This document shows, piece by piece, positions 33-63,744 of a stretch of DNA of 64,000 bases; positions within the stretch are counted from its first letter, which is position 1, and every line of letters starts with the position of its first letter. Position numbers and translations under genes: made by a program. The DNA lies in NCBI GenBank assembly GCA_948099385.1, contig CANUEZ040000191.1, positions 9,796,001 to 9,860,000 on the forward strand, in the 5' to 3' direction. The DNA comes from Fasciola hepatica (lineage: Eukaryota; Platyhelminthes; Trematoda; Plagiorchiida; Fasciolidae). The notes below the pieces were generated by a model. That model was not told where the DNA came from. It did no database searches and worked only from the letters and a program-made list of their open reading frames with translations.

Positions 33-332
33 CCTACTACTAATCAATTGCATGCATAGTAAGGAAGCTGTGTGAGTTTTTCATTTGGGAATGCGTTGGT
101 TGTACTTAGGCCCCTACAGAGAAGTCATCTATCTTAGGAGTCGATCGGTGTGCGCGAAGCTGGTTGTTACCGTTAAAATTTGAAGCCAGTTTGGGAAGGG
201 TGCTATATATGATGTAGTGTAGATGTTGAACAAAGCGTTGATAGCCATCCCGGATAGCCTTGTGTTGTTAAGTTGTTCGATTCACCATGGTTCAGCGGTT
301 GTTGGAGTCCCCGTGGTTGCTCGGTCGATGTG

Positions 333-380
333 CACTGCTGATGAGTCGAGTTCGAACAAGGATGAAACAGCTGTACAGTG
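333..380 (+). ncRNA. Hammerhead motif, first copy, core intact
   Basis: CACTG 333-337, CTGATGA 338-344, stem II region 345-363 (one loop change, TTCGAAC), GAA 364-366, ACAGCTGT 367-374, A 375, CAGTG 376-380. Predicted cleavage is between 375 and 376. Confidence 0.75.
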
Positions 381-777
381 AGTGCTTCCATGGGTTTCAA
401 TGCTCAGTTGAGCGTTCAAGCTGCATGATCAATAATATTATGCAAATCTAATCTATTCTTATCTAATATAATCTAATCTCCTACTACTAATCAATTGCAT
501 GCATAGTAAGGAAGCTGTGTAGGTTTATCATTTGGGAATGCGTTGGTTGTACTTAGGCCCCTACAGGGAAGTCATCCATCATAGGAGTCGATCGGTGTGC
601 GCGAAGCTGGTTGTTACCATTCAAATTTGAAGCCAGTTTGGGAAGGGTGCTATATCATGTAGTGTAGATGTTGAACAAAGCGTTGATAGCCATCCCGGAT
701 AGCCTTGTTTTGTTGAGTTGTTCGATTCACAATGGTTGACCGGTTGTTGGAGTGCCCGTGGTTGCTCGGTCGATGTG

Positions 778-825
778 CACTGCTGATGAGTCGAGTCCGA
801 ACAAGGATGGAACAGCTGTACAGTG
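778..825 (+). pseudogene. Hammerhead motif, A13G haplotype
   Basis: The GAA after stem II reads GGA (GATGGAAC). A13 is an essential core base in characterised hammerheads, so this copy should not cleave. The same change occurs in 12 copies across the window. Confidence 0.65.
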
Positions 826-1222
826 AGTGCTTCCATGGATTTCAATGCTCAGTTGAGCGTTCAAGCTGCATGATCAATCATATTATACAAATCTAATCTA
901 ATCTAATCTAATCTGATCTAATCTCCGACTACTAATCAATTGCATGCATAGTAAGGAAGCTGTGTAGGTTTTTCATTTGGGAATGCGTTGGTTGTACTTA
1001 GGCTTCTTCAGAGAAGTCATCCATCATAGGAGTCGATCGGTGTGCGCGAAGCTGGTTGTTACCATTCAAATTTGAAGCCAGTTTGGGAAGGGTGCTATAT
1101 CATGTAGTGTAGATGTTGAACAAAGCGTTGATAGCCATCCCGGATAGCTTTGTGTTGTTAGGTTGTTCGATTCACAATGGTTGACCGGCTGTTGGAGTGC
1201 CCGTGGTTGCTCGGTCGATGTG

Positions 1223-1270
1223 CATTGCTCATGAGTCGAGTCCGAACAAGGATGAAACAGCTGTACAGTG
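1223..1270 (+). pseudogene. Hammerhead motif, G5C haplotype
   Basis: Core reads CTCATGA and helix I reads CATTG. G5 is essential in the family. The two changes travel together in six copies (1223, 3466, 6142, 12026, 13836, 17851). Confidence 0.65.
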
Positions 1271-4200
1271 AGTGCTTCCATGGATTTCAATGCTCAGTTG
1301 AGCGTTCAAGCTGCATGATCAATCATATTATACAAATCTATTCTAATCTAATCTTATCTAATCTAATATCATACTACTAATCAATTGCATGCATAGTAAG
1401 GAAGCTGTGTAGGTTTTTCATTTGGGAATGCGTTGGTTGTACTTAGGCCCCCAAAAGAGAAGTCATCCATCATAGGAGTCGATCGGTGTGCGCGAAGCTG
1501 GTTGTTAACATTCAAATTTGAAGCCAGTTTGGGAAGGGTGCTATATCATGTAGTGTAGATGTTGAACAAAGCGTTGATAGCCATCCCGGATAGCCTTGTG
1601 TCGTTAAGTTGTTCGATTCACAAGGGTTCACCGGTTGTTGGAGTCCCCGTGGTTGCTCGGTCGATGTGCACTGCTGATGAGTCGAGTCCGAACAAGGATG
1701 AGACAGCTGTACAGTGAGTGCTTCCATGGATTTCAATGCTCAGTTGAGCGTTCAAGCTGCATGATCAACCATATTATACAAATCTAATCTAATCTAAACT
1801 AATCTAATCCAATCTAATCTAATCTAATCTCCTACTACTAATCAATTGCATGCATAGTAAGGAAGCTGTGTGAGTTTTTCATTTGGGAATGCGTTGGTTG
1901 TACTTAGGCCCCTACAGAGAAGTCATCCATCATAGGAGTTGATCGGTGTGCGCGAAGCTGGTTGTTACCATTCAAATTTGAAGCCAGTTTAGGAAGAATG
2001 CTATATGATGTAGTGTAGATGTTGAACAAAGCGTTGATAGCCATCCGGGATAGCCTTGTGTTGTTAAGTTGTTCGATTCACCATGGTTCAGCGGTTGTTG
2101 GAGTCCCCGTGGTTGCTCGGTCGATGTGCACTGCTGATGAGTCGAGTCCGAACAAGGATGAAACAGCTGTACAGTGAGTGCTTCCATGGATTTCAATGCT
2201 CCGTTGAGCGTTCAAGCTGCATGATCAATCATATTATACAAATCTATTCCAATATAATATAATGTTATCTCCTACTACTAATCAATTGCATGCATAGTAA
2301 TGACGGTGTGTGAGTTCTTCATTTGGGATTGCGTTGGTTGTACTTAGGCCCCTACAGAGAAGTCATCCATCATAGGAGTCGATCGGTGTGCGCGAAGCTG
2401 GTTGTTACCATTCAAATTTGAAGCCAGTTTGGGAAGGGTGCTATATATGATGTAGTGTAGATGTTGAACAAAGCGTTGATAGCCATCCCGGATAGCCTTG
2501 TTTTGTTAAGTTGTTCGATTCACAATGGTTCCGCGGTTGTTGGAGTCTCCGTGGTTGCTCGGTCGATGTGCACTGCTGATGAGTCGAGTCCGAACAAGGA
2601 TGGAACAGCTGTACAGTGAGTGCTTCCATGGATTTCAATGCTCAGTTGAGCGTTCAAGCTGCATGATCAATCATATTATACAAATATATTCTAATCTAAT
2701 CTAATCTAATCTAATCTCCTACTACTAATCAATTGCATGCATAGTGAGGAAGCTGTGTGAGTTTTTCATTTGGGAATGCGTTGGTTGTACTTAGGCCCCT
2801 ACAGAGAAGTCATCCATCATAGGAGTCGATCGGTGTGCGCGAAGCTGGTTGTTACCATTGAAATTTGAAGCCAGTTTGGGAAGGGTGCTATACAATGTAG
2901 TGTTGATGTTGAACAAAGCTTTGATAGCCATCCGGGATAGCCTTGTTTTGTTAAGTTGTTCAATTCACAATGGTTCCGCGGTTGTTGGAGTCTCCGTGGT
3001 TGCTCGGTCGATGTGCACTGCTGATGAGTCGAGTCCGAACAAGGATGGAACAGCTGTACACTGAGTGCTTCCATGGATTTCAATGCTCAGTTGAGCGTTC
3101 AATCTGCATGATCAATCATATTATTCAAATCTAATCTAATCTAATCTAATCTAATCTAATCTAATCTCCTACTACTAATCAATTGCATGCATAGTAATGA
3201 CGGTGTGTGAGTTCTTCATTTGGGATTGCGTTGGTTGTAATTAGGCCGCTTCAGAGACGTTATCCATCATAGGAGTCGATCGGTGTGCGCGAAGCTGGTT
3301 GTTACCATTCAAATTTGAAGCCAGTTTGGGAACGGTGCTATATCATGTAGTGTAGATGTTGAACAAAGCGTTGATAGCCATCCCGGATAGCTTTGTGTTG
3401 TTAGGTTGTTCGATTCACAATGGTTGACCGGCTGTTGGAGTGCCCGTGGTTGCTCGGTCGATGTGCATTGCTCATGAGTCGAGTCCGAACAAGGATGAAA
3501 CAGCTGTACAGTGAGTGCTTCCATGGATTTCAATGCTCAGTTGAGCGTTCAAGCTGCATGATCAATCATATTATACAAATCTGTTCTAATCTAATCTTAT
3601 CTAATCTAATATCCTACTACTAATCAATTGCATGCATAGTAAGGAAGCTGTGTAGGTTTTTCATTTGGGAATGCGTTGGTTGTACTTAGGCCCCCAAAAG
3701 AGAAGTCATCCATCATAGGAGTCGATCGGTGTGCGCGAAGCTGGTTGTTAACATTCAAATTTGAAGCCAGTTTGGGAAGGGTGCTATATCATGTAGTGTA
3801 GATGTTGAACAAAGCGTTGATAGCCATCCCGGATAGCCTTGTGTTGTGAAGTTGTTCGATTCACAAGGGTTCACCGGTTGTTGGAGTCCCCGTGGTTGCT
3901 CGGTCGATGTGCACTGCTGATGAGTCGAGTCCGAACAAAGATGAGACAGCTGTACAGTGAGTGCTTCCATGGATTTCAATGCTCAGTTGAGCGTTCAAGC
4001 TGCATGATCAATCATATTATACAAATCTAATCTAATCTAATCTAATCTAATCCAATCTAATCTAATCTAATCTCCTACTACTAATCAATTGCATGCATAG
4101 TAAGGAAGCTGTGTGAGTTTTTCATTTGGGAATGCGTTGGTTGTACTTAGGCCCCTACAAAGAAGTCATCCATCATAGGAGTCGATCGGTGTGCGCGAAG

Positions 4201-7200
4201 CTGGTTGTTACCATTCAAATTTGAAGCCAGTTTGGGAAGGGTGCTATATCATGTAGTGTAGATGTTGAACAAAGCGTTGATAGCCATCCGGGATAGCCTT
4301 GTGTTGTTAAGTTGTTCGATTCACCATGGTTCAGCTGTTGTTGGAGTCCCCGTGGTTGCTCGGTCGATGTGCACTGCTGATGAGTCGAGTCCGAACAAGG
4401 ATGAAACAGCTGTACAAAGAGTGCTTCCATGGATTTCAATGCTCAGTTGAGCGTTCAAGCTGCATGATCAATCATATTATACAAATCTATTCCAATATAA
4501 TATAATGTTATCTCCTACTACTAATCAATTGCATGCATAGTAATGACGGTGTGTGAGTTCTTCATTTGGGATTGCGTTGGTTGTAATTAGGCCGCTTCAG
4601 AGACGTTATCCATCATAGGAGTCGATCGGTGTGCGCGAAGCTGGTTGTTACCATTCAAATTTGAAGCCAGTTTGGGAAGGGTGCCATATCATGTAGTGAA
4701 GATGTTGAACAAAGCGTTGATAGCCATCCCGGATAGCCTTGTTTTGTTAAGTTGTTCGATTCACAATGGTTCCGCGGTTGTTGGAGTCTCCGTGGTTGCT
4801 CGGTCGATGTGCACTGCTGATGAGTCGAGTCCGAACAAGGATGGAACTGCTGTACAGTGAGTGCTTCCATGGATTTCAATGCTCAGTTGAGCGTTCAAGC
4901 TGCATGATCAATCATATTATACAAATATATTCTAATCTAATCTAATCTAATCTAATCTCCTACTACTAATCAATTGCATGCATAGTAAGGAAGCTGTGTA
5001 GGTTTTTCATTTGGGAATGCGTTGGTTGTACTTAGGCCCCTACAGAGAAGTCATCCATCATAGGAGTCGATCGGTGTGCGCGAAGCTGGTTGTTACCATT
5101 GAAATTTGAAGCCAGTTTGGGAAGGGTGCTATATGATGTAGTGTATATGTTGAACAAAGCGTTGATAGCCATCCCGGATAGCTTTGTGTTGTTAAGTTGT
5201 TCGATTCACAATGGTTCAGCGGTTGTTGGAGTCCCCGTAGTTGCTCGGTCGATGTGCACTGCTGATGAGTCGAGTCCGAACAAGGATGAAACAGCTGTAC
5301 AGTGAGTGCTTCCATGGATTTCAATGCTCAGTTGAGCGTTCAAGCTGCATGATCAATCATATTACACAAATCTATTCTAATCTAATTTAATCTAATCTCC
5401 TACTACTAATCAATTGCATGCATAGTGAGGAAGCTGTGTGAGTTTTTCATTTGGGAATGCGTTGGTTGTACTAAGGCCCCTACAGAGAAGTCATCCATCA
5501 TAGGAGTCGATCGGTGTGCGCGAAGCTGGTTGTTACCATTGAAATTTGAAGCCAGTTTGGGAAGGGTGCTATACAATGTAGTGTAGATGTTGAACAAAGC
5601 TTTGATAGCCATCCGGGATAGCCTTGTTTTGTTAAGTTGTTCAATTCACAATGGTTCCGCGGTTGTTGGATTCCCCGTAGTTGCTCGGTCGATGTGCACT
5701 GCTGATGAGTCGAGTCCGAACAAGGATGGAACAGCTGTACACTGAGTGCTTCCATGGATTTCAATGCTCAGTTGAGCGTTCAATCTGCATGATCAATCAT
5801 ATTATTCAAATCTAATCTAATCTAATCTAATCTAATCTAATCTCCTACTACTAATCAATTGCATGCATAGTAAGGAATCTGTGTGAGTTTTTCATTTGGG
5901 AATGCGTTGGTTGTACTTAGGCCCCTACAGAGAAGTCATCCATCATAGGAGTCGATCGGTGTGCGCGAAGCTGGTTGTTACCATTGAAATTTGAAGCCAG
6001 TTTGGGAAGGGTGCTATATCATGTAGTGTAGATGTTGAACAAAGCGTTGATAGCCATCCCGGATAGCTTTGTGTTGTTAGGTTGTTCGATTCACAATGGT
6101 TGACCGGCTTTTGGAGTGCCCGTGGTTGCTCGGTCGATGTGCATTGCTCATGAGTTGAGTCCGAACAAGGATGAAACAGCTGTACAGTGAGTGCTTCCAT
6201 GGATTTCAATGCTCAGTTGAGCGTTCAAGCTGCATGATCAATCATATTATACAAATCTATTCTAATCTAATCTTATCTAATCTAATATCCTACTACTAAT
6301 CAATTGCATGCATAGTAAGGAAGCTGTGTAGGTTTTTCATTTGGGAATGCGTTGGTTGTACTTAGGCCCCCAAAAGAGAAGTCATCCATCATAGGAGTCG
6401 ATCGGTGTGCGCGAAGCTGGTTGTTAACATTCAAATTTGAAGCCAGTTTGGGAAGGGTGCTATATCATGTAGTGTAGATGTTGAACAAAGCGTTGATAGC
6501 CATCCCGGATAGCCTTGTGTTGTGAAGTTGTTCGATTCACAATGGTTCACCGGTTTTTGGAGTCCCCGTGGTTGCTCGGTCGATGTGCACTGCTGATGAG
6601 TCGAGTCCGAACAAGGATGAGACAGCTGTACAGTGAGTGCTTCCATGGATTTCAATGCTCAGTTGAGCGTTCAAGCTGCATGATCAACCATATTATACGA
6701 ATCTAATCTAATCTAATCTAATCTAATCCAATCTAATCTAATCTAATCTAATCTCCTACTACTAATCAATTGCATGCATAGTAAGGAAGCTGTGTGAGTT
6801 TTTCATTTGGGAATGCGTTGGTTGTACTTAGGCCCGTACAGAGAAGTCATCCATCATAGGAGTCGATCGGTGTGCGCGAAGCTGGTTGTTACCATTCAAA
6901 TTTGAAGCCAGTTTAGGAAGAATACTATATGATGTAGTGTAGATGTTGAACAAAGCGTTGATAGCTATCCGGGATAGCCTTGTGTTGTTAAGTTGTTCGA
7001 TTCACAATGGTTCAGCGGTTGTTGGAGTCCCCGTGGTTGCTCGGTCGATGTGCACTGCTGATGAGTCGAGTCCGAACAAGGATGAAACAGCTGTACAGTG
7101 AGTGCTTCCATGGATTTCAATGCTCAGTTGAGCGTTCAAGCTGCATGATCAATCATATTATACAAATCTATTCCAATATAATATAATGTTATCTCCTACT

Positions 7201-8057
7201 ACTAATCAATTGCATGCATAGTAATGACGGTGTGTGAGTTCTTCATTTGGGATTGCGTTGGTTGTAATTAGGCCGCTTCAGAGACGTTATCCATCATAGG
7301 AGTCGATCGGTGTGCGCGAAGCTGGTTGTTACCATTCAAATTTGAAGCCAGTTTGGGAAGGGTGCCATATCATGTAGTGAAGATGTTGAACAAAGCGTTG
7401 ATAGCCATCCCGGATAGCCTTGTGTTGTTAAGTTGTTCGATTCACAATGGTTCCGCGGTTGTTGGAGTCTCCGTGGTTGCTCGGTCGATGTGCACTGCTG
7501 ATGAGTCGAGTCCGAACAAGGATGGAACAGCTGTACAGTGAGTGCTTCCATGGATTTCAATGCTCAGTTGAGCGTTCAAGCTGCATGATCAATCATATTA
7601 TACAAATATATTCTAATCTAATCTAATCTAATCTAATCTCCTACTACTAATCAATTGCATGCATAGTAAGGAAGCTGTGTAGGTTTTTCATTTGGGAATG
7701 CGTTGGTTGTACTTAGGCCCCCAAAAGAGAAGTCATCCATCATAGGAGTCGATCGGTGTGCGCGAAGCTGGTTGTTACCATTCAAATTTGAAGCCAGTTT
7801 GGGAAGGGTGCTATATCATGTAGTGTAGATGTTGAAAAAAGCTTTGAATACGATCCCGGATTGATTTGTGTTGTTAAGTTGTTTGATTCACAATGGTTCA
7901 GCGGTTGTTGGAGTCCCCGTGGTTGCTCGGTCGATGTGCACTGCTGATGAGTCGAGTCCGAACAAGGATGGAACAGCTGTACAGTGAGTGCTTCCATGGA
8001 TTTCAATGCTCAGTTGAGCGTTCAAGCTGCATGATCAATCATATTATACAAAGATAT

Positions 8058-8120
8058 TCTAATCTAATCTAATCTAATCTAATCTAATCTAATCTAATCT
8101 AATCTAATCTAATCTAATTT
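8058..8120 (+). repeat. Longest clean (TAATC)n pentamer tract
   Basis: About 12 units of the pentamer separate two monomers here and account for the longest monomer spacing in the window (480 bp between ribozymes at 7939 and 8419). Equivalent tracts elsewhere are mostly 3-9 units with interruptions such as TTATC, CAATC, AAATC or ATAATC. It is not the insect telomere repeat TTAGG. Confidence 0.9.
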
Positions 8121-9465
8121 CCTACTACTAATCAATTGCATGCATAGTAAGGAAGCTGTGTGAGGTTTTCATTTGGGAATGCGTTGGTTGTACTTAGGCC
8201 CCTACAGAGAAGTCATCCATCATAGGAGTCGATCGGTGTGCGCGAAGCTGGTTGTTACCGTTAAAATTTGAAGCCAGTTTGGGAAGGGTGCTATATCATG
8301 TAGTGTAGATGTTGAACAAAGCGTTGATAGCCATCCCGGATAGCCTTGTGTTGTTAAATTGTTCGATTCACCATGGTTCACCGGTTGTTGGAGTCCCCGT
8401 GGTTGCGCGGTCGATGTGCACTGCTTATGAGTCGAGTCCGAACAAGGATGAAACAGCTGTACAGTGAGTGCTTCCATGGATTTCAATGCTCAGTTGAGCT
8501 TTCAAGCTGCATGATCAATCATATTATACAAATCTTTTATAATCTAATCTAATCTAATCTCCTACTACTAAACAATTGCATGCATAGTAAGGAAGCTGTG
8601 TGAGTTTTTCATTTGGGAATGCGTTGGTTGAACTTAGGCCCCTACAGAGAAGTCATCCATCATAGGAGTCGTTCGGTGTGCGCGAAGCTGAATGTTACCA
8701 TTCAAATTTGAAGCCAGTTTGGGAAGAATGCTATATGATGTAGTGTAGATGTTGAACAAAGCGTTGATAGCCATCCCGGATAGCCTTGTGTTGTTAAGTT
8801 GTTCGATTCACCATGGTTCACCGGTTGTTGCAGACCCCGTGGTTGCGCGGTCGATGTGCACTGCTGATGAGTCGAGTCCGAACAAGGATGAAACAGCTGT
8901 ACAGTGAGTGCTTCCATGGATTTCAATGCTCAGTTGAGCGTTCAAGCTGCATGATCAATCATATTATACAAATATATTCTAATCTAATCTAATCTAATCT
9001 AATCTAATCTAATCTAATCTTCTTCTACTAATCAATTGCATGCATAGTAAGGAAGCTGTGTGAGTTTTTCATTTGGGAATGCGTTGGTTGTACTTAGGCC
9101 CCTACAGAGAAGTCATCCATCATAGGAGTCGATCGGTGTGCTCGAAGCTGGTTGTTACCATTCAAATTTGAAGCCAGTTTGGGAAGGGTGCTATATGATG
9201 TAGTGTAGATGTTGAACAAGGCGTTGATGGCCAAACCGGATAGCCTTGTGTTGTTGAGTTGTTCGATTCACAATGGTTCAGCGGTTGTTGGAGTCCCCGT
9301 GGTTGCTCGGTCGATGTGCACTGCTGATGAGTCGAGTCCGAACAAGGATGGAACAGCTGTACAGTGAGTGCTTCCATGGATTTCAATGCTCAGTTGATTG
9401 TTCAAGCTGCATGATCATCCATATTATACAAATCTAAACTAGTGAAATCTAATCTAATCTAATCT

Positions 9466-10740
9466 CCTACTACTAATCAATTGCATGCATAGTAAGGAAG
9501 CTGTGTGAGTTTATCATTTGAGAATGCGTTGGTTGTATATAGGCCCCTACAGAGAAGTCATCCATCATAGGAGTCGATCGGTGTGCGCGAAGCTGGTTGT
9601 TACCATTCAAATTTGAAGCCAGTTTGGGAAGGGTGCTATATATGATGTAGTGTAGATGTTGAACAAAGCGTTGATAGCCATCCCGGATAGCCTTGTGTTG
9701 TTAAGTTGTTCGATTCACCATGGTTCAGCGGTTGTTGGAGTCCCCGTGGTTGCTCGGTCGATGTGCACTGCTGATGAGTCGAGTCCGATCAAGGATGAAA
9801 CAGCTGTACAGTGAGTGCTTCCATGGATTTCAATGCTCAGTTGAGCGTTCAAGCTGCATGATCAATCATATTATACAAATCTAATCTAATCTAATCTAAT
9901 CTAATCTAATCTAATCTCCTACTACTAATCAATTGCATGCATAGTAAGGAAGCTGTGTAGGTTTTTCATTTGGGAATGCGTTGGTTGTACTTAGGCCCCT
10001 ACAGAGAAGTCATCCATCATAGGAGTCGATCGGTGTGCGCGAAGCTGTTTGTTACCGTTAAAATTTGAAGCCAGTTTGGGAAGGGTGCTATATCATGTAG
10101 TGTAGATGTTGAACAAAGCGTTGATAGCCATCCGGGATAGCCTTGTGTTGTTAAATTGTTCGATTCACCATGGTTCAGCGGTTGTTGGAGTCCCCGTGGT
10201 TGCTCGGTCGATGTGCACTGCTGATGAGTCGAGTCCGAACAAGGATGAAACAGCTGTACAGTGAGTGCTTCCATGGATTTCAATGCTCAGTTGAGCGTTC
10301 AAGCTGCATGATCAATCATATTATACAAATATATTCTAATCTAATCTAATCTAATCTAATCTCCTACTACTAATCAATTGCATGCATAGTAAGGAAGCTG
10401 TGTAGGTTTTTCATTTGGGAATGCGTTGGTTGTACTTAGGCCCCTACAGAGAAGTCATCCATCATAGGAGTCGATCGGTGTGCGCAAAGCTGGTTGTTAC
10501 CATTGAAATTTGAAGCCAGTTTGGGAAGGGTGCTATATCATGTAGTGTAGATGTTGAACAAAGCGTTGATAGCCATCCCGGATAGCCTTGTGTTGTGAAG
10601 TTGTTCGACTCACAAGGGTTCACCGGTTGTTGGAGTCCCCGTGGTTGCTCGGTCGATGTGCACTGCTGATGAGTCGAGTCCGAACAAGGATGAAACAGCT
10701 GTACAGTGAGTGGTTCCATGGATTTCAAAGCTCAGTTGAG
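9466..10740 (+). repeat. Segment 2: three monomers with intact ribozyme cores
   Basis: S = 9766 (stem II loop reads CCGATC), 10216 and 10661, all with full core. The third has G for C just after helix I (TGGTTCC) and CAAAG for CAATG, which separate it from the following duplicated block. Confidence 0.85.
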
Positions 10741-10837
10741 CGTTCAAGCTGCATGATCAACCATATTATACAAATCTAATCTAATCTAATCTAATCTAAT
10801 CTAATCTAAACTTATCTAATCTAATCTAATCTAATCT

Positions 10838-10864
10838 CCTACTACTAATCAATTGCATGCATAG
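10838..10864 (+). other. Conserved monomer header with nested palindromes
   Basis: The header contains CCTACTACTAATC, CAATTG and the 8-bp palindrome TGCATGCA (10854-10861). It is preserved in nearly all monomers; rare variants are CCTACTTCTAATC, CAATTTCATG (24.2, 25.1 and 27.8 kb) and TTACATGCTTAG (54.9 and 55.7 kb). AATTGCAT is one mismatch from the octamer ATTTGCAT. Function unknown; it could be a protein-binding site or simply a homogenised segment. Confidence 0.5.
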
Positions 10865-10977
10865 TAAGGAAGCTGTGTGAGTTTTTCATTTGGGAATGCG
10901 TTGGTTGTACTTAGGCCCCTACAGAGAAGTCATCCATCATAGGAGTCGATCGGTGTGCGCGAAGCTGGTTGTTACCA

Positions 10978-10989
10978 TTCAAATTTGAA
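10978..10989. repeat. 12-bp perfect palindrome TTCAAATTTGAA
   Basis: A perfect dyad in the middle of the monomer. Copies alternate between TTCAAATTTGAA (perfect) and TTGAAATTTGAA (broken dyad). The G form instead creates a perfect 9-nt complement (CATTGAAAT) to ATTTCAATG just downstream of the ribozyme. Confidence 0.6.
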
Positions 10990-11044
10990 GCCAGTTTGGG
11001 AACGGTGCTATATCATGTAGTGTAGATGTTGAACAAAGCGTTGA

Positions 11045-11056
11045 TAGCCATCCCGG
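11045..11056 (+). promoter_or_regulatory. Weak A-box-like element upstream of the B-box match
   Basis: TAGCCATCCCGG matches the A-box pattern TRGCNNAGYNGG except at the central AG, and lies 21 nt before the B-box match, closer than in tRNA genes. A second partial match (AAGCCAGTTTGG) lies about 80 nt before the B-box. Neither is convincing alone. Confidence 0.18.
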
Positions 11057-11077
11057 ATAGCCTTGTGTTGTTGAGTT

Positions 11078-11086
11078 GTTCGATTC
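11078..11086 (+). promoter_or_regulatory. RNA polymerase III B-box-like element
   Basis: GTTCGATTC matches the B-box core GTTCRANNC at every position. Its neighbours (T before, A after) do not match the outer G and C of the full consensus. It sits 50 nt before the hammerhead helix I in each monomer. Most copies read GTTCGATTC or GTTCAATTC, both allowed; some break it (GTTTGATTC, GATCGATTC, GTACGATTC). Internal pol III promoters are described for the schistosome hammerhead satellite, so an internal promoter is plausible here, but a 9-nt match alone is weak evidence. Confidence 0.4.
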
Positions 11087-11103
11087 ACAATGGTTCACCG
11101 GTT

Positions 11104-11204
11104 GTTGGAGTCCCCGTGGTTGCTCGGTCGATGTGCACTGCTGATGAGTCGAGTCCGAACAAGGATGAAACAGCTGTACAGTGAGTGCTTCCATGGATTT
11201 CAAT
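11104..11204 (+). ncRNA. Hammerhead ribozyme motif, type I-like, extended helix I (reference copy)
   Basis: Seen in sequence: helix I 3' strand CACTG (11136-11140); catalytic CTGATGA (11141-11147); stem II region (11148-11166); GAA (11167-11169); helix III ACAG/CTGT (11170-11177); cleavage base A17 (11178); helix I 5' strand CAGTG (11179-11183). CACTG pairs perfectly with CAGTG, and A15.1-U16.1 is present. Helix I extends outward after an internal loop: CCGUGG (11114-11119) pairs with CCAUGG (11191-11196), and GUUGGAGU (11104-11111) pairs with AUUUCAAU (11197-11204) with G.U wobbles. Predicted self-cleavage lies between 11178 and 11179. Helix III is a self-complementary 8-mer too short for a stable hairpin, as in several animal satellite hammerheads proposed to work as dimers. 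Odd: stem II next to the core is only GUC/GAU with a 13-nt loop, because GAGTC is duplicated; the alternative GUCC/GGAU helix lies 5 nt away from the core. Motif identity is strong; activity is unproven. Confidence 0.82.
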
Positions 11205-11216
11205 GCTCAGTTGAGC
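11205..11216 (+). other. Short hairpin GCTC-AGTT-GAGC after the ribozyme
   Basis: A 4-bp inverted repeat with a 4-nt loop directly follows the outer helix I strand. Some subfamilies change it (CTCACTTGATTG, CTCATATGATTG, CAGTTGATCATT), which removes the pairing, so it is unlikely to be essential. Confidence 0.35.
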
Positions 11217-11326
11217 GTTCAAGCTGCATGATCAATCATATTATACAAATCTATTCTAAACTAATCTTATCTAATATAATCTCCTACTACTAATCAATTG
11301 CATGCATAGTAAGGAAGCTGTGTAGG

Positions 11327-11331
11327 TTTTT
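11327..11331 (+). terminator. T5 run, possible pol III terminator in the following monomer
   Basis: TTTTT follows the header of the next monomer, about 145 nt after the predicted cleavage site. A pol III transcript begun near the B-box would pass through the ribozyme and stop here. Other monomers carry TTTATC or TTCTTC at this place, which would remove the stop and allow multimeric transcripts. TTTATC is uncommon before about 19 kb and frequent after it. Inference only. Confidence 0.25.
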
Positions 11332-53500: not shown

Positions 53501-54403
53501 TCTAATCTACTCTAATCTAATCTAATCTCCTACTACTAATCAATTGCATGCATAGTAAGGAAGCTGTGTAGGTTTATCATTTGGGAATGCGTTGGTTGTA
53601 CTTAAGCCCCTACAGAGAAGTCATCCATCATAGGAGTCGATCGGTGTGAGCGAAGCTGGTTGTTACCATTCAAATTTGAAGCCAGTTTGGGAAGGGTGCT
53701 ATATCATGTAGTGGAGATGTTGAACAAAGCGTTGATAGCCATCCCGGATAGCCTTGTGTTGTTAAGTTGATCGATTCACAATGGTTCACCGGTTGTTGGA
53801 GTCCCCGTGGTTTCTCGGTCGATGTGCGCTGCTGATGAGTCGAGTCCGATCAAGGATGAAACAGCTGTACACTGAGTGCTTCCATGGATTTCAATGCTCA
53901 GTTTATTGTTCAAGCTGCATGATCAATCATATATTACAAACCTATTCTAATCTAATCTAATCTAATCTAATCTCCTACTACTAATCAATTGCATGCATAG
54001 TAGGGAAGCTGTGTTGGTTTATCATTTGGGAATGCAATGGTTGTACTTAGGCCCCTACAGAGAAGTCATCCATCATAGGAGTCGATCGGTGTGCGCGAAG
54101 CTGGTTGTTACCATTCAAATTTGGATACAGTTTGGGAACGGTGCTATATCATGTAGTGTAGATGTTGAACAAATCTTTGAAAAAGATCCCGGATAGCCTT
54201 GTGTTGTTAAGTTGTTCGATTCACAATGGTTCACCGGTTGTTGGAGTCCCCGTGGTTGCTCGGTCGATGTGCACTGCTGATGAGTCGAGTCCGAACAAGG
54301 ATGAAACAGCTGTACAGTGAGTGCTTCCATGGATTTCAATGCTCAGTTGAGCGTTCAAGCTGCATGATCAATCATATTATACAAATCTATTCTAATCTAA
54401 TCT
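41533..54403 (+). repeat. Segment 9: 29 monomers with GCTTTGAAA/CTTTGAAAAA subfamilies
   Basis: S with full core: 41832, 42272, 42712, 43154, 43599 (helix III ACAT/TTGT), 44039 (10.1 is A), 44484 (helix III ACAG/CCGT), 44944, 45388, 45833 (cleavage base T, helix I TAGTG), 46280, 46720, 47165, 47610, 48055 (helices I and III weakened), 48496, 49388 (helix I CGCTG), 49833, 50278, 51608, 52048, 52493, 52938 (CACTG, one mismatch), 53382, 53827 (CACTG) and 54272. Defective: 48943 A14G; 50718 G5A; 51163 A13G. Monomers with AAAAGATC or AAACAGATC in the middle region (42.2-44.4 and 48.4-54.2 kb) alternate with the common GCGTTGATAGCC form. Confidence 0.86.
44039..44086 (+). ncRNA. Hammerhead motif with A10.1-U11.1 stem II
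   Basis: CTGATGAATC replaces CTGATGAGTC, turning the G10.1.U11.1 wobble into a Watson-Crick A-U pair, so the proximal stem II becomes AUC/GAU. The same change is at S = 52493. Confidence 0.6.
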
Positions 54404-57400
54404 TCTTCTACTAATCAATTGCATGGATAGTAAGGAAGCCGTGTAGGTTTTTCAATTGGGAAGGCATTGGTTGTACTCAAGCCCCTAAAGAGAAATCATC
54501 TATCACATCATTAGACCAAAGTGCGCGAAGCTGGTTGTTACCATTCGAATTTGAATCCAGTTTGGGAACGGTGCTATATCATGTAGTGTAGATGTTGAAC
54601 AAAGCGTTGATAGCCATCCCGGATAGCTATGTGTTGTTAAGTTGTTCGATTCACAATGGTTCACCGGTTGTTGGAGTCCCCGTGGTTGCTCGGTCGATGT
54701 GCACTGCTGATGAGTCGAGTCCGAACAAGGATGAAACAGCTGTACAGTGAGTGCTTCCATGGATTTCAATGCTCAGTTGAGCGTTCAAGCTGCATGATCA
54801 ATCATATTTTACAAATATTTTCTAATCCAATATTATCTGATCTCCTACTAATAATCAATTACATGCTTAGTAAGGAAGCAGCGTTGGTTTATCATTTGGG
54901 AATGCGTTGGTTGTACTTCGGCCCCTACAGAGAAGTCATCCATCATAGGAGTCGATCGGTGTGCGCGAAGCTGGTTGTTACCATTGAAATTTGAAGCCAG
55001 TTTGGGAAGGGTGCTGTATCATGTAGTGGAGATGTTGAACAAAGCGTTGATAGCCATCCCGGATAGCCTTGTGTTGTTAAGTTGTTCGATTCACAATGGT
55101 TCACCGGTTGTTGGAGTCCCCGTGGTTTCTCGATCGATGTGCGCTGCTGATGAGTCGAGTCCGATCAAGGATGAAACAGCTGTACAGTGAGTGCTTCCAT
55201 GGATTTCAATGCTCAGTTTATTGTTCAAGCTGCATGATCAATCATATATTAAAAACTTATTCTAATCTAATCTAATCTAATCTAATCTCCTACTACTAAT
55301 CAATTGCATGCATAGTAGGGAAGCTGTGTTGGTTTATCATTTGGGAATGCAATGGTTGTACTAAGCCCCTAAAGAGAAATCATCTATCACAACATTAGAC
55401 CAAAGTGCGCGATGCTGGTTGTGACCATTCAAAATTGAAGCCAGTTTGGGAACGGTGCTATATCATGTAGTGTAGATTTTGAACAAAGCGTTGATAGCCA
55501 TCCCGGATAGCCTTGTGTTGTTAAGTTGTTCGATTCACAATGGTTCAGCGGTTGTTGGAGTCCCCGTGGTTGCTCGGTCGATGTGCACTGCTGATGAGTC
55601 GAGTCCGAACAAGGATGAAACAGCTGTACAGTGAGTGCTCCCATGGATTTCAATGCTCAGTTGAGCGTTCAAGCTGCATGATCAATCATATTATACAAAT
55701 ATTTTTTATCCAATATAATCTGATCTCCTACTAATAATCAATTACATGCTTAGTAAGGAAGCAGCGTTGGTTTATCATTTGGGAATGCGTTGGTTGTACT
55801 TAGGCCCCTACAGAGAAGTCATCCATCATAGGAGTCGATCGGTGTGCGCGAAGCTGGTTGTTACCATTCAAATTTGAAGCCAGTTTGTGAAGGGTGCTAT
55901 ATGATGTAGTGTAGATGTTGAATAAAGCGTTGATATCCATCCCGGATAGCGTTGTGTTGTTAAGTTGTACGATTCACAATGGTTCAGCGGTTGTTGGAGT
56001 CCCCGTGGTTGCTCGGTCGATGTGCACTGCTGATGAGTCGAGTCCGAACAAGGATGAAACAGCTGTACAGTGAGTGCTTCCATGGATTTCAATGCTCAGT
56101 TGAGCGTTCAAGCTGCCTGATCCATCATATTATACAAATCTATTCTAATCTAATCTAATCTAATCTAATCTCCTACTACTAATCAATTGCGTGCATAGAA
56201 AGGAAGCTGTGTAGGTTTATCATTTGGGAATGCGTTGGTTGTACTTACGCCCCTACAGAGAAGTCATCCATCATAGGAGTCGATCGGTATGCGCGAAGCT
56301 GGTTGTTACCATTCAAATTTGAAGCCAGTTTGGGAACGGTGCTATGTGATGTAGTGTAGACGTTGAACAAAGCGTTGATAGCCATCCCGGATAGCCATGT
56401 GTTGTTAAGTTGTTCGATTCACAATGGTTCAGCGGTTGTTGGAGTCCCCGTGGTTGCTCGGTCGATGTGCACTGCTGATGAGTCGAGTCCGAACAAGGAT
56501 GAAACAGCTGTACAGTGAGTGCTTCCATGGATTTCAATGCTCAGTTGAGCGTTCAAGCTGCATGATCAATCACATTATACAAATCTATTCTAATCTAATC
56601 TCCTACTACTAATCAATTGCATGCATAGTAAGGAAGCTGTGTAGGTTCTTCATTTGAGAATGCGTTGGTTGTACGTAGGCCCCTACAGAGAAGTCATCCA
56701 TCATAGGAGTCGATCGGTATGCGCGAAGCTGGTTGTTACCATTCAAATTTGAAGCCAGTTTGGGAAGGGTGCTATATGATGTAGTGTAGATGGTGAACAA
56801 AGCGTTGATAGCCATCCCGGATAGCCTAGTGTTGGTAAGTTGTTCGATTCACAATGGTTCAGCGGTTGTTGGAGTCCCCGTGGTTGCTCGGTCGATGTGC
56901 GCTGCCGATGAGTCCAGTCCAAACAAGGATGAAACAGCTGTACAGTGAGTGCTTCCATGGATTTCAATGCTCAGTTGAGCGTTCAAGCTGCATGATCTAT
57001 CACAATATACAATTATAATTTAATCTAATCTCCTACTTCTAATCAATTGCATGCATAGTAAGGAAGCTGTGTTGGTTTATCATTTGGGATTGCGTTGGTT
57101 GTACGTAGGCCCCTACAAAGAAGTCATCCATCATAGGAGTCGATCGGTGTGCGCGAAGCTGGTTGTTACCATTCAAATTTGAAGCCAGTTTGGGAAGGGT
57201 GCTATATCATGTAGTGTTGATGTTGAACAAAGCGTTGATAGCCATCCCGGATAGCCTTGTGTTGTTAAGTTGTTCGATTCACAATGGTTCAGCGGTTGTT
57301 GGAGTCCCCGTGGTTGCTCGGTCGATGTGCGCTGCTGATGAGTCGAGTCCAAACAAGGATGAAACAGCTGTACAGTGAGTGCTTCCATGGATTCCAATGC

Positions 57401-58363
57401 TCAGTTGAGCGTTCAGACACATGATCTATCACATTATACAATTATAATCTAATCTAATCTCCTACTACTAATCAATTGCATGCATAGTAAGGAAGCTGTG
57501 TAGGTTTATCATTTGGGAATGCGTTGGTTGTACTTAGGCCCCTACAGAGAAGTCATCGATCATAGGAGTCGATCGGTGTGAGCGAAGCTGGTTGTTACCA
57601 TTCAAATTTGAAGCCAGTTTGAGAAATGTGCTATACATGCACTAGTGTAGATGTTGAACAAAGCGTTGATAGCCATCCCGGAGAGCTTTGGGTTGTTAAG
57701 TTGATCGATTCACAATGGTTCACCGGTAGTTGGAGTCCCCGTGGTTGCTCGGTCGATGTGCACTGCTGATGAGTCGAGTCCGAACAAGGATGAAACAGCT
57801 GTACAGTGAGTGCTTCCATGGATTTCAATGCTCACTTGATTGTTCAAGCTGCATGATCAATCATATCATACAAATCGTTTCTAATCTTATCTAATCTAAC
57901 CTAATCTAATCTCCTACTACTAATCAATTGCATGCATAGTAAGGAAGCTGTGTAGATTGATCATTTGGGAATGCGTTGGTTGTACTTAGGCCCCTACAGA
58001 GAAGTCATCCATCATAGGAGTCGATCGGTGTGAGCGAAGCTGGTTGTTACCATTCAAATTTGAAGCCAGTTTGAGAAATGTGCTATAAATGCACTAGTGT
58101 AGATGTTGAACAAAGCGTTGGTAGCCATCCGGAAGAGCGTTGGGTTGTTAAGTTGATCGATTCACAAGGGTTCACCGGTTGTTGGAATCACCGTGGTTGC
58201 TCGCTCGATGTGCACTGCTGATGAGTCGAGTCCGATCAAGGATGAAACAGCTGTACAGTGAGTGCTTCCATGGAGTTCAATGCTCACTTGATTGTTCAAG
58301 CTGCATGATTAATCATATCATCCAAATCGTTTCTAATCTTATCTAATCTAACCTAATCTAATC
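54404..58363 (+). repeat. Segment 10: nine monomers with unusual headers and short spacers
   Basis: S = 54702, 55142 (CGCTG), 55586, 56025, 56470, 57330 (CGCTG), 57761 and 58213 keep the core; 56900 has T4C. Headers at about 54844 and 55728 read CCTACTAATAATCAATTACA. Pentamer tracts are unusually short at 56.6, 57.0 and 57.4 kb, giving 430-bp spacings. Confidence 0.85.
56900..56947 (+). pseudogene. Hammerhead motif with T4C and a 4-bp proximal stem II
   Basis: Core reads CCGATGA, a change of a conserved base. The stem II region here starts GTCC and ends GGAT, allowing a 4-bp helix directly next to the core, unlike the usual GUC/GAU. Confidence 0.5.
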
Positions 58364-61300
58364 TCTTACTACTAATCAATTGCATGCATAGTAAGGAAGC
58401 TGTGTGAGGTTTTCATTTGGGAATGCGTTGGTTGTACTTAGGCCCCTACAGAGAAGTCATCCATCACAGCAGTAGACCGAAGTGCGCGAAGCAGGTTGTT
58501 ACCAATCAAATTTGAAGCCAGTTTGGGAAGTGTGCTATATGATGTAGAGTAGATTTTGAACAAAGCGTTGATAGCCATCCCGGATAGCCTTGTGTTGTTA
58601 AGTTGTTCGATTCACAATGGTTCAGCGGTTGTTGGAGTCCCCGTGGTTGCTCGGTCGATGTGCGCTGCTGATGAGTCGAGTCCGAACAAGGATGAAACAG
58701 CTGTACAGTGAGTGCTTCCATGGATTTCAATGCTCAGTTGAGCGTTCAAGCTGCATGATCAATCATATTATACAAATCTATTCTAATCTAGTCTAATCTA
58801 ATCTCCTACTACTAATCAATTGCATGCATAGTAAGGAAGCTGTGTGAGTTTTTCATTTGAGAATGCTTTGGTTGTACTTAGGCCCCTACAGAAATCATCC
58901 ATCATAGGAGTCGATCGGTGTGCGCGAAGCTGGTTGTTACCATTGAAATTTGAAGCCAGTTTGGGAAGGGTGCTATACATGATTTAGAATAGATTTTGAA
59001 CAAAGTGTTGGTAGCCATCCCGGATAGCCCTGTGTTGTTAAGTTGTTCGATTCACAATGGTTCAGCGGTTGTTGGAGTCCCCGTGGTTGCTCGGTCGATG
59101 TGCACTGCTGATAAGTCGAGTCCGAACAAGGATGAAACAGCTGTACAGTGAGTGCTTCCATGGATTTCAGTGCTCACTTGATTGTTCAAGCTGCATGATC
59201 AATCATATTATACAAATCTATTCTAATCTAAACTAATCTAATCTAATCTAATCTAATCTAATCTAATCTAATCTAATCTCCTACTACTAATCAATTGCTT
59301 GCATAGTAAGAACGCTGTGTGAGGTTTTCAGTTGGGAATGCGTTGGTTGTACTTAGGCCCCTACAGAGAGGTCATCTATCACAGCAGTAGACCGAAGTGC
59401 GCGATGCTGGTTGTTACCAATCAAATTTGAAGCCAGTTTGGGAAGTGTGCTATATATGATTTAGAATAGATTTTGAACAAATAGTTGGTAGCCATCCCGG
59501 ATGGCCTTGTGTTGTTAAGTTGTTCGATTCACAATGGTTCACCGGTTGTTGGAGTCCCCGTGGTTGCTCGGTCGATGTGCACTGCTGATGAGTCGAGTCC
59601 GAACAAGGATGAAACAGCTGTACAGTGAGTGCTTCCATGGATTTCAATGCTCAGTTGAGCGTTCAAGCTGCATGATCAATCATATTATACAAATCTATTC
59701 TAATCTAATCTAATCTAATCTCCTACTACTAATCAATTGCATGCATAGTAAGGAAGCTGTGTTGGTTTATCATTTGGGAATGCGTTGGTTGTACTTAGGC
59801 CCCTACAGAGAAGTCATCCATCATAGGAGTCGATCGGTGTGCGCGAAGCTGGTTGTTACCATTCAAATTTGAAGCCAGTTTGGGAAATGTGCTATACATG
59901 AACTAGTGTAGATGTTGAACAAAGCGTTGATAGCCATCCCGGATAGCCTTGTGTTGTTAAGTTGTTCGATTCACAATGGTTCACCGGTTGTTGGAGTCAC
60001 CGTGGTTGCTCGGTCGATGTGCACTGCTGATAAGTCGAGTCCGAACAAGGATGAAACAGCTGTACAGTGAGTGCTTCCATGGATTTCAATGCTCACTTGA
60101 TTGTTCAAGTTGCATGATCAATCATATCATACAAATCTATTCTAATCTAATATAATCTAATCTAATCTAATCTCCTACTACTAATCAATTGGATGCATAG
60201 TAAGAACGATGTGTCAGTTTTTCATTTGGGAATGCGTTGGTTGTACTTAGGCCCCTACAGAGAGGTCATCTATCACAGCAGTAGACCGAAGTGCGCGATG
60301 CTGGTTGTTACCAATCAAATTTGAAGCCAGTTTGGGAAGTGTGCTATACATGATTTAGAATAGATTTTGAACAAAGAGTTGGTAGCCATCCCGGATGGCC
60401 TTGTGTTGCTAAGTTGTTTGATTCACAATGGTTCAGCGGTTGTTGGAGTCCCCGTGGTTGCTCGGTCGATGTGCACTGCTGATGAGTCGAGTCCGAACAA
60501 GGATGAAACAGCTGTACAGTGAGTGCTTCCATGGATTTCAATGCTCAGTTGAGCGTTCAAGCTGCATGATCAATCATATTATACAAATCTATTCTAATCT
60601 AATATAATCTAATCTAATCTAATCTCCTACTACTAATCAATTGGATGCATAGTAAGAACGATGTGTGAGTTTTTCATTTGGGAATGCGTTGGTTGTACTT
60701 AGGCCCCTACAGTGAAGTAATCCATCACAGCAGTAGACCGAAGTGCGCGAAGCAGGTTGTTACCAATCAAATTTGAAGCCAGTTTGGGAAGTGTGCTATA
60801 AGATGTAGAGTAGATTTTGAACAAAGCGTTGATAGCCATCCCGGATAGCCTTGTGTTGTTAAGTTGTTCGATTCACAATGGTTCAGCGGTTGTTGGAGTC
60901 CCCGTGGTTGCTCGGTCGATGTGCGCTGCTGATGAGTCGAGTCCGAACAAGGATGAAACAGCTGTACAGTGAGTGCTTCCATGGATTTCAATGCTCAGTT
61001 GAGCGTTCAAGCTGCATGATCAATCATAAAATACAAATCTATTCTAATCTAATCTAATCTCCTACTACTAATCAATTGCATGCATAGTAAGGAAGCTGTG
61101 TGAGTTTTTCATTTGAGAATGCTTTGGTTGTACTTAGGCCCCTACAGAAATCATCCATCATAGGAGTCGATCGGTGTGCGCGAAGCTGGTTGTTACCATT
61201 GAAATTTGAAGCCAGTTTGGGAAGGGTGCTATACATGATTTAGAATAGATTTTGAACAAAGTGTTGGTAGCCATCCCGGATAGCCCTGTGTTGTTAAGTT

Positions 61301-63744
61301 GTTCGATTCACAATGGTTCACCGGTTGTTGGAGTCCCCATGGTTGCTCGGTCGATGTGCACTGCTGATAAGTCGAGTCCGAACAAGGATGAAACAGCTGT
61401 AGAGTGAGTGCTTCCATGGATTTCATTGCTCACTTGATTGTTCAAGCTGCATGATCAATCATATTATACAAATCTATTCTAATCTAATCTAATCTAATCT
61501 AATCTAATCTAATCTAATCTAATCTAATCTCCTACTACTAATCAATTGCTTGCATAGTAAGAACGCTGTGTGAGGTTTTCAGTTGGGAATGCGTTGGTTG
61601 TACTTAGGCCCCTACAGAGAGGTCATCTATCACAGCAGTAGACCGAAGTGCGCGATGCTGGTTGTTACCAATCAAATTTGAAGCCAGTTTGGGAAGTGTG
61701 CTATACATGATTTAGAATAGATTTTGAACAAATAGTTGGTAGCCATCCCGGATAGGCTTGTGTTGTTAAGTTGTTCGATTCACAATGGTTCAGCGGTTGT
61801 TGGATTCCCCGTGGTTGCTCGGTCGATGTGCACTGCTGATGAGTCGAGTCCGAACAAGGATGAAACAGCTGTACAGTGAGTGCTTCCATGGATTTCAATG
61901 CTCAGTTGATCATTCCAGCCATATTATAAATCATGTTATACAAATCTATTCTAATCCAATCTAATCTAATCTCCTACTACTAATCAACTGCATGCATAGT
62001 AAGGAAGCTGTGTTGGTTTATCATTTGGGAATGCGTTGGTTGTACTTAGGCCCCTACAGAGAAGTCATCCATCATAGGAGTCGATCGGTGTGCGCGAAGC
62101 TGGTTGTTACCATTCAAATTTGAAGCCAGTTTGGGAAATGTGCTATACATGAACTAGTGTAGATGTTGAACAAAGCGTTGATAGCCATCCCGGATAGCCT
62201 TGTGTTGTTAAGTTGTTCGATTCACAATGGTTCAGCGGTTGTTGGAGTCCCCGTGGTTGCTCGGTCGATGTGCACTGCTGATGAGTCGAGTCCGAACAAG
62301 GATGAAACAGCTGTACAGTGAGTGCTTCCATGGATTTCAATGCTCAGTTGAGCGTTCAAGCTGCATGATCAATCATATTACACAAATCTTTTCTAATCTA
62401 ATCTAATCTAGTCTAATCTCCTACTACTAATCAATTGCATGCATAGTAAGCAAGCTGTGTAGGTTTATCATTTGGGAATGCTTTGTTTGTTCTAAGGCCC
62501 CAAAAGAGAAGTCATCCATCATAGGAGTCGATCGGTGTGCGCGAAGCTGGTTGTTACTATTCAAATTTGAAGCCAGTTTGGGAAGGGTGCTATATCATGT
62601 AGTGTAGATGTTGAACAAAACGTTGATATCCATCCCGGATAGCCTTGTGTTGTTAAGTTGTACGATTCACAATGGTTCAGCGGTTGTTGGAGTCCCCGTG
62701 GTTGCTCGGTCGATGTGCACTGCTGATGAGTCGAGTCCGAACAAGGATGAAACAGCTGTACAGTGAGTCCTTCCATGGATTTCAATGCTCAGTTGAGCGT
62801 TCAAGCTGCATGATCAATCATGTTATACAAATCTATTCTAATTTAATCTAATCTAATCTCCTACTACTAATCAATTGCATGCATAGTAAGGAAGCTGTGT
62901 GAGTTTTTCATTTGGGAATGCGTTGGTTGTACTTAGGCCCCTACAGAGAAGTCATCCATCATAGGAGTCGATCGGTGTGCGCGAAGCTGGTTGTTACCAT
63001 TCAAATTTGAAGCCAGTTTGGGAAGGGTGCTATATGATGTAGTGTAGATGTTGAATAAAGCGTTGATATCCATCCCGGATAGCGTTGTGTTGTTAAGTTG
63101 TACGATTCACAATGGTTCAGCGGTTGTTGGAGTCCCCGTGGTTGCTCGGTCGATGTGCACTGCTGATGAGTCGAGTCCGAACAAGGATGAAACAGCTGTA
63201 CAGTGAGTGCTTCCATGGATTTCAATGCTCAGTTGAGCGTTCAAGCTGCATGATCAATCATATTATACAAATCTATTCTAATCTAATCTAATCTAATCTC
63301 CTACTACTAATCAATTGCATGCATTGTAAGGAAGCTGTGTAGGTTTATCATTTGGGAATGCGTTGGTTGTACTTAGGCCCCAAAAGAGAAGTCATCCATC
63401 ATAGGAGTCGATCGGTGTGCACGAAGCAGGTTGTTACAATGCAAATTTGAATCCAGTTTTGGAAGGGTGCTATATCATGTAGTGTAGATGTTGAACAAAG
63501 CGTTGATAGCCATCCCGGATAGCCTTGTGTTGTCAAGTTGTTCGATTCACAATGGTTCATCGGTTGTTGGATTCCCCGTGGTTGCTCGGTCGATGTGCAC
63601 TGCTGATGAGTCGAGTCCGAACAAGGATGAAACAGCTATAAAGGGAGTGCTTCCATGAATTTCAATGCTCAGTTGAGCGTTCAAGCTGCATGATCAATCA
63701 TATTATACAAATCTGTTCTACTCTAATCTAATCTAATCTCATCT
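58364..63744 (+). repeat. Segment 11: twelve monomers with a 5-monomer duplication and G8A ribozymes
   Basis: S = 58663 intact; 59103 G8A (CTGATAA); 59580 intact; 60022 G8A; 60474 and 60924 intact; 61359 G8A and helix I GAGTG; 61831, 62273, 62718 and 63158 intact; 63598 helix III CTAT and helix I AAGGG, so the helices are lost. 58.4-59.66 kb matches 60.66-61.9 kb at offsets 2261, 2256 and then 2251, each 5-bp step matching a pentamer change. The monomer at 63001-63225 repeats the one at 55868-56092 (TGAATAAAGCG, TTGTACGATTC) at offset 7133. Confidence 0.86.
59383..59390 (+). repeat. Alternative 5' subfamily marker (AGCAGTAG)
   Basis: The usual ATAGGAGTCGATCGG is replaced by ACAGCAGTAGACCGA or close. 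Also at 26987, 45193, 45638, 47860, 58468, 60277, 60729 and 61634; related CATTAGACC forms are near 54510 and 55395. It is usually paired with GCGATGCTG or GCGAAGCAGG just downstream. Confidence 0.7.

Follow-up and report, generated by a model that had tools for sequence, protein, structure and literature searches.

A circle model of retrozymes, animal elements built around a hammerhead ribozyme, has been described (PMC7761336), and Penelope-like elements are a strong candidate, though only a candidate, for moving them by reverse transcription of the circles (Cervera and de la Peña, 2020; PMC7229834). We analyze a 64,000-nt stretch of the trematode Fasciola hepatica genome (assembly GCA_948099385.1, contig CANUEZ040000191.1 or C191, positions 9,796,001 to 9,860,000, forward strand; hereafter "the window"), which is occupied by a satellite with a hammerhead motif in each monomer, together with the dispersed ~400-bp relatives of this satellite.

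Three published properties of Penelope-like elements matter here: head-to-head inverted repeats are their commonest arrangement, one of the inverted copies carries a 31-bp tail, and their target duplications measure 8–10 bp (PMC3846280). The purified protein of a Penelope-like element from Anolis cleaves both strands of the target and extends them, with a preference for AT-rich DNA, and it begins reverse transcription within its RNA at two adjacent sites, the intervening stretch being a 30–40-bp tail; in Anolis PAc the ribozyme cut lies at +26 and the main start at +111 to +118, i.e., ~85–92 nt past the cut (PMC11167929). The window does contain the motif, which belongs to a known class, the animal retrozyme. 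The stronger result lies outside the window, where the informative and probably mobile members of the family are found: by likeness to the published elements, the dispersed copies carry the insertion signature of Penelope-like elements.

Insertion Pattern of the Dispersed Copies

The window hammerheads contain two tandem duplications, of GAGTC and of AGTG; both are missing from the relatives compared, and a 400-bp relative has AGTG once. The genome searched comprises 656 contigs (1.50 Gb) of a fasciolid fluke; its COX1, translated with genetic code 9, shows 95% identity to Fasciola gigantica and 85% to Fasciolopsis. With up to one mismatch allowed, the undoubled core is found at 12,210 places; a reversed control matches none. 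Forty-eight loci were read: 30 young ones, from the first places listed for the undoubled core (10 picked for visible pairs or arrays, 20 otherwise), and 18 Rfam-picked ones. Unit positions are counted from the C of CUGAUGA (u1), with the cut after u33; a second block in locus L053 was excluded as a separate copy.

Two arms arranged head-to-head are found in 32 of the 48 loci (−+ in 31, −−+ in one with three blocks) and in 11 of the 20 loci not picked for pairs; 16 loci are single-armed (12 +, 4 −), and none is tail-to-tail (+−). In the young loci, outer ends cluster while inner ends are scattered across the unit. Two sites account for most of the 80 outermost arm ends: 34 lie in site P (u83–108, its lower bound shifted from 85 to 83 so that L033 counts), 38 in site D (u110–136) and 8 elsewhere. 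The sites alternate, one P and one D end being present in 22 of 25 classifiable pairs, where half would be expected (p = 7e-5), or in 21 of 24 (p = 1.3e-4) if two loci holding the same element are counted once; 7 further pairs are unclassifiable. P and D ends lie a median of 29 nt apart (range 17–48, n = 22), so that these 22 pairs show the optional ~30-bp tail on one arm that is typical of Penelope-like elements. Counted from the ribozyme cut, the putative starts of the fluke elements fall ~65–70 and ~90–100 nt downstream.

The surroundings of the copies are those of insertions. Target duplications of at least 6 bp flank 19 of the 30 young loci (at least three within AT microsatellites), compared with 9.3% of 1000 mismatched flank pairs, and 10 of the 18 Rfam-picked loci; at 15 of the 48 loci they reach at least 8 bp and are not pure AT. 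Dispersed insertions with target duplications, as expected of a retrozyme, are thus a property of the family but not of the window array. The two arms overlap at their junction in 21 of 31 pairs, and flanks are AT-rich (0.69, vs. 0.57 farther away). Because head-to-head arms, a ~30-bp one-arm tail and short target duplications make up the published Penelope signature, a Penelope-type enzyme is the probable mover.

Two loci on C53, L028 and L029, lie 7 kb apart and hold the same composite head-to-head element (624/625 identical) between different flanks and different target duplications (12 and 13 bp), as if the whole inverted pair had moved again. The two flanks of L052 (C10:3,085,401–3,087,900) are reverse complements of each other, and this palindromic locus is either an inverted duplication or an assembly artefact.

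Template of the Copies

What was copied? At least one arm crosses the cleavage junction in 48/48 loci, a result forced by the search because the picking pattern and the Rfam model both span the cut. Of the 32 multi-armed loci, 23 have a second arm across the junction as well; among the 10 arms without the search stretch, 8 nevertheless end at P or D. Such ends are not expected from a monomer cut at u33 and left linear, which makes a circle, or a multimer left uncut, the probable insertion template.

The arrays, which hold up to 11 hammerheads per arm, bear on this choice. L051 consists of five 401-bp units with 0 differences, and the 17 complete units of L049, divided between both arms (7 and 10), are one sequence within 3 differences (mean of 0.6 per 400). 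Units differ by means of 0–3.3 within arrays and 1.3–9.0 between them; L050 (2.9) and L084 (3.3) are the less uniform. Among ten arrays (80 units), four have private alleles fixed in all of their units: 14/14 in L082, 13/13 in L083, 5/5 in L051 and 3/3 in L085.

Could genomic arrays have supplied multimeric transcripts that were copied uncut into concatemers, with no need for an RNA circle? Tandem arrays exist as a transcription source, ribozyme mutants of the Anolis element inserted equally well in vitro (PMC11167929), and two arrays show the higher internal differences just given, all of which would suit such a template; however, alleles fixed throughout four arrays and a single sequence shared by both L049 arms speak against it, making it possible though not probable. 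A single-unit circular template explains the fixed alleles most simply, and later homogenization could do so too.

Anatomy of the Dispersed Units

Dispersed units are exactly 400 or 401 bp long and ~80% identical to the satellite consensus. The hammerhead model RF00163 exceeds its gathering threshold (34 bits) at 37 genome places outside the window; among the 20 loci fetched, 19 are relatives of the monomer (~69–89% match) without the GAGTC duplication, L016 is unrelated, and L031 and L032 are the same locus. Scores of the relatives range from 28.8 to 40 bits. Most undoubled-core matches among those listed have T at 10.1, a form scored at 28.8 bits; the best dimer that RNAcofold gives for this form, the majority one, is a newt-type double hammerhead.

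Several units also carry part of a tRNA. Of 14 loci scanned with ARAGORN, 6 have a tRNA-Val (CAC) call directly 5' of the hammerhead; the Rfam tRNA model (threshold 29) gives 33.1 bits in L051 and L056, 30.4 in L030 and lower scores in L085, L031 and L054. A perfect B box is present somewhere in the fetched stretch of 40 of 53 loci.

The hammerhead in L016 (C238:657964) scores above the Rfam threshold with no similarity found to the satellite family, and perhaps belongs to another hammerhead element. Near the dispersed retrozyme of L024 are two sub-threshold Hammerhead_HH9 matches (1073–1144 and 1373–1445; 38.7 and 29.7 bits, threshold 52).

The Satellite Window

The window is one head-to-tail array. 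All 144 nhmmer matches (143 full monomers and one truncated at the window end) are on the + strand, and a minus-strand run (E 1e-3) on the window returned zero monomer matches. The monomer, with a modal length of 445 bp and a GC content of 42.7% by base counts, measures 445 bp in 53 and 440 bp in 30 of the 144 units; length differences are often multiples of 5 bp, arising from an (AATCT)n tract. Just one open reading frame of at least 110 aa is present in the 64 kb. The features referred to below are, in window coordinates:

34..63999, + strand: head-to-tail satellite array, 143 full monomers and 1 partial (nhmmer)
34..480, + strand: first monomer, 447 bp (array mode 445 bp)
300..310, + strand: TGTTGGAGTCC, at the place of the tRNA T-arm/B box, where the 400-bp relative has GGTTCGAGTCC
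333..380, + strand: type I hammerhead motif of the first monomer, the same segment being in register in 143/143; its parts are CACTG (333–337), CTGATGA (338–344), helix/loop II (345–363), GAA (364–366), ACAGCTGT (367–374), A17 (375) and CAGTG (376–380), with the expected cut at 375/376
343..352, + strand: 5-nt tandem duplication GAGTC/GAGTC (second copy GAGTT in the first monomer), which shifts helix II
377..384, + strand: 4-nt tandem duplication AGTG/AGTG in the 3' strand of helix I
444..480, + strand: degenerate (AATCT)n tract, variable in length; reverse transcription of the dispersed relatives appears to start in this region

A sequence-only reading of this DNA had placed a hammerhead in every monomer, in register and on the + strand, with about 110 core-intact copies. 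Both statements hold: the 56-nt hammerhead segment is without indels in 143/143 full monomers, with none on the minus strand, and exactly 110 of the 143 copies combine CUGANGA, GAA, A15.1–U16.1 and H17, the sequence definition of a type I hammerhead; the other 33 have at least one broken core base. Perfect helix I and A15.1–U16.1 had been claimed for each copy; the first, as a 5-bp helix with standard pairs throughout, is present in 133 and the second in 140, and the remainder lack them. The other elements are kept in 129 (CUGANGA), 127 (GAA), 143 (H17), 141 (3-bp helix II) and 131 copies (the 8-nt palindrome ACAGCTGT). A strict hammerhead descriptor matches 102 times on the + strand and 0 times on the −, as against 4 matches when the entire window was dinucleotide-shuffled 200 times, which sets the motif above chance. 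The kinship proposed with animal hammerhead satellites and retrozymes is likewise borne out, the array being a satellite that derives from type I hammerheads and belongs with the animal retrozymes. The covariance-model check suggested at the same time turned out negative: no window copy reaches the RF00163 gathering threshold of 34 bits, 79 copies scoring 19.1–22.1 bits (E 0.96–9.3 in a 64-kb search) and two reaching E 0.39 in a 2.7-kb search.

What sets the window copies apart is the pair of duplications inside the ribozyme. GAGTC is duplicated exactly in 128 of 143 copies and within 2 substitutions in all 143, between CTGAT and the loop in every copy; the doubled AGTG form CAGTGAGTGC occurs exactly at 127 window places and the undoubled CAGTGCTTCC of the relatives at 0. 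Two options are predicted for helix II: (i) GUC/GAU closing a 13-nt loop, at +1.1 kcal/mol, and (ii) GUCC/GGAU, at −3.8 kcal/mol, with 5 extra nt beside the core; by prediction, neither gives a stable helix stacked straight onto the core. The predicted window fold engages part of the core, and the named hammerhead lies 13.7 kcal/mol above it, compared with 9.8 and 8.5 kcal/mol in two dispersed forms. The circular window unit is 63% paired (z −0.5 vs. 60 shuffles), i.e., it lacks the self-pairing beyond chance that characterizes retrozymes. These predictions suggest that the window hammerheads are probably weakened by the two tandem duplications; efficient cutting and circularization of window transcripts finds no support in modeled ribozymes with both insertions and, in 33 copies, a broken core.

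Might the window hammerheads instead be active as dimers held together by the palindrome, with the satellite itself the source of linear and circular RNAs of ~445 nt? Newts and axolotl provide precedents for hammerheads with a weak helix III that act as dimers (PMC7229834), most window copies keep the core and the palindrome, and the hammerhead segment has a mean majority identity of 98.5%, vs. 96.2% elsewhere in the monomer (a value equaled by 34 of 344 other same-length windows). RNAcofold does pair the palindromes of two window copies (−37.5 vs. 2 × −16.0 kcal/mol), but in this fold helix I takes C3-U4-G5 of the core. Moreover, core positions vary no less than helix I (34/1573 vs. 31/1430), a comparison that reveals no selection on the ribozyme core in window copies; helix II is either unstable or burdened with 5 extra nt at the core; and the window has no perfect B box. 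We consider dimer activity doubtful.

Nor does the window monomer appear to keep the promoter of its relatives: a tRNA scan of the window found none. An internal pol III promoter was considered and rejected, since 4 of 100 shuffles attain the best A/B box pair score (15) and 40 of 300 a B box score of at least 8. Short higher-order repeats were rejected as well, as the mean identity of monomers to their neighbors is flat over distances of 1 to 15 units; a few pairs 2–11 monomers apart are >99% alike. Exact core patterns gave 0 matches in IMG/VR and in GTDB contigs, a single gapped-pattern match in IMG/VR was judged to be due to chance once its stretch was read, and a plasmid search with one monomer gave no match.

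The array extends far beyond the window. Probes and the matches listed trace the satellite along C191 between 8.53 Mb and 9.90 Mb or beyond; its orientation switches within this block, in which one non-satellite gap was met near 9.126 Mb, and parts of C205 carry it as well. In 133 copies sampled outside the window, at six places on these two contigs, the GAGTC duplication is present in 133/133 within 2 substitutions and the core is intact in 115. The doubled core matches 4,624 genome places; the matches listed, which hold neither the known C191 minus-strand copies nor contigs after C191 and are therefore little informative on dispersal, comprise one place each on C112 and C179, the rest being on the C191 + strand.

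The orientation of the C191 satellite changes from + to − between 8.60 and 8.80 Mb, and from − to + (head-to-head) between 9.07 and 9.08 Mb. A related repeat with 73–76% identity to the satellite consensus, perhaps another subfamily, lies at C205:1,000,001–1,000,600 (L102). Elsewhere, mitochondrial COX1 recurs on multi-copy contigs (C429, C468, C471 and others) in steps of ~14.2–14.9 kb, concatemer-like.

A Model for the Spread of the Family

If the dispersed elements encode no enzyme, where could one come from? GIY-YIG domain matches occur at 90 genome places, 11 of them within open frames of at least 790 aa; these frames measure ~828 aa, and seven same-strand neighbors are spaced by 2,751–2,755 bp. 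All ten opposite pairs within 6 kb are head-to-head, two on C8 probably being mutual duplicates.

LINE-type enzymes that act by ordinary twin priming also generate 8–14-bp target duplications, inverted arms and junction overlaps, and start the second arm at an arbitrary internal point. Movement by such an enzyme rather than a Penelope-like element would fit the target duplications, arms and overlaps seen here, the abundance of reverse transcriptases in the genome (that of a Penelope-like element being unconfirmed at the GIY-YIG frames) and the tRNA-bearing, SINE-like character of several young loci, but it is the least likely of the alternatives, since the starts of both arms share a stretch of ~50 nt, where they alternate between two sites separated by ~29 nt, as in Penelope-like elements (PMC11167929, PMC3846280).

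Our preferred account, which we hold with fair though far from complete confidence, is that of a DNA-amplified, probably weakened satellite derived from a tRNA-Val/hammerhead retrozyme whose dispersed form is moved by a Penelope-type enzyme. The window would be part of a megabase-scale satellite that descended from this retrozyme, lost the tRNA B box and spread mainly through DNA-level exchange, not RNA. The living form of the family would be the dispersed ~400-bp element, whose RNA would be cut at the hammerhead and closed to a circle (or left as an uncut multimer). A Penelope-type enzyme would then use both strands of an AT-rich target to prime reverse transcription, starting at two internal RNA sites, and the product, head-to-head arms of anything from a partial unit up to many near-identical units, would come to lie between short target duplications. 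Of all this, the sequence anatomy, the patterns of the copies and the positions of their ends are observed; the weak cleavage of window copies, the DNA-level spread, the circle and the enzyme are inferences. A more specific version, whose chances we see as evenly balanced, has the enzyme copy one circular RNA round and round, one site per strand, into divergent arrays, with the window satellite being a remnant amplified as plain DNA after ribozyme and promoter loss.

Several observations weigh against this account. On the side of the dispersed copies, the loci come from the first listed contigs or the Rfam top scores and are not a random draw; in the 20 loci not picked for pairs or arrays, P/D pairing is 6 vs. 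1 with 4 unclassifiable (p = 0.06); a few arm ends lie at or near the cut (u33, u34, u43); and the crossing of the cut in every locus carries no weight, which leaves second-arm crossing and end positions to do so. Differences within arrays are not always below those between them (2.9 in L050, vs. 1.9 between L050 and L081), and none of the best 150 of 84,892 RVT_1 candidates falls at the 828-aa GIY-YIG frames, a search that is uninformative. On the side of the ribozyme, the window core is, after all, intact in 110/143 copies. The majority relative, with U.U at 10.1–11.1, is itself below the Rfam threshold at 28.8 bits, and in relatives, too, the hammerhead ranks poorly in folding programs (8.5–9.8 kcal/mol above the predicted fold), so the energy argument is a relative one; shuffled sequences fold as well as the circular window unit (z −0.5). 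Finally, two doubled copies lie off C191 among the matches listed, and spread by DNA exchange is something we infer.

If the more specific version is true, the dispersed fluke copies record how hammerhead circles of animals return to the genome. Thousands of dispersed copies, those read having legible ends, make two questions directly testable in one genome: the identity of the enzyme behind retrozyme movement in animals, and the role of a circle as its template. A worn, DNA-amplified hammerhead satellite set apart from its mobile relatives also warns against inferring activity from core conservation alone.

Comparison with Known Systems

Among the papers listed in searches on hammerheads and satellite DNA of Fasciola, none deals with this satellite family, judging by title or abstract start, and on the same basis no report of two-site, head-to-head retrozyme arrays was found. 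The pDo500 satellite of Dolichopoda cave crickets has a hammerhead-like region that is, according to its authors, no more conserved than the rest; its insect hosts are unrelated to flukes, and dispersed mobile relatives go unmentioned in the accessible part of that report (PMC2808323). Schistosome SM-alpha and W36.2, SINE-like elements that also come from flukes, combine a type I hammerhead with a tRNA part (PMC8490949, PMC4918200), but they differ in length and are reported to contain tRNA-Gln or -Glu in place of the tRNA-Val of Fasciola; the likeness is by description only.

Metazoan non-LTR retrozymes are likewise small tandem repeats with type I hammerheads and no coding region (PMC7229834). 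Among them, HHR_Amex2 resembles the fluke hammerheads in its two-bp helix III with a tetraloop, and the majority dispersed form also shares its U.U at the base of helix II. Unlike these retrozymes, the window copies have two duplications inside the ribozyme, and a tRNA-Val part is present in several dispersed copies; the available part of PMC7229834 describes no head-to-head arms ending at two sites.

The closest parallel to the insertions themselves is found in the Penelope-like elements of Adineta vaga (PMC3846280) and Anolis (PAc; PMC11167929), which share with the fluke elements (i) head-to-head copies with an optional ~30-bp one-arm tail, (ii) short target duplications in AT-rich targets, and (iii) internal reverse-transcription starts downstream of the hammerhead. 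Penelope-like elements encode a reverse transcriptase with GIY-YIG, unlike the fluke retrozyme, which has no such frame and would need these activities in trans. By this analogy, animal retrozymes probably owe their movement to Penelope-type enzymes, which perhaps read RNA circles.

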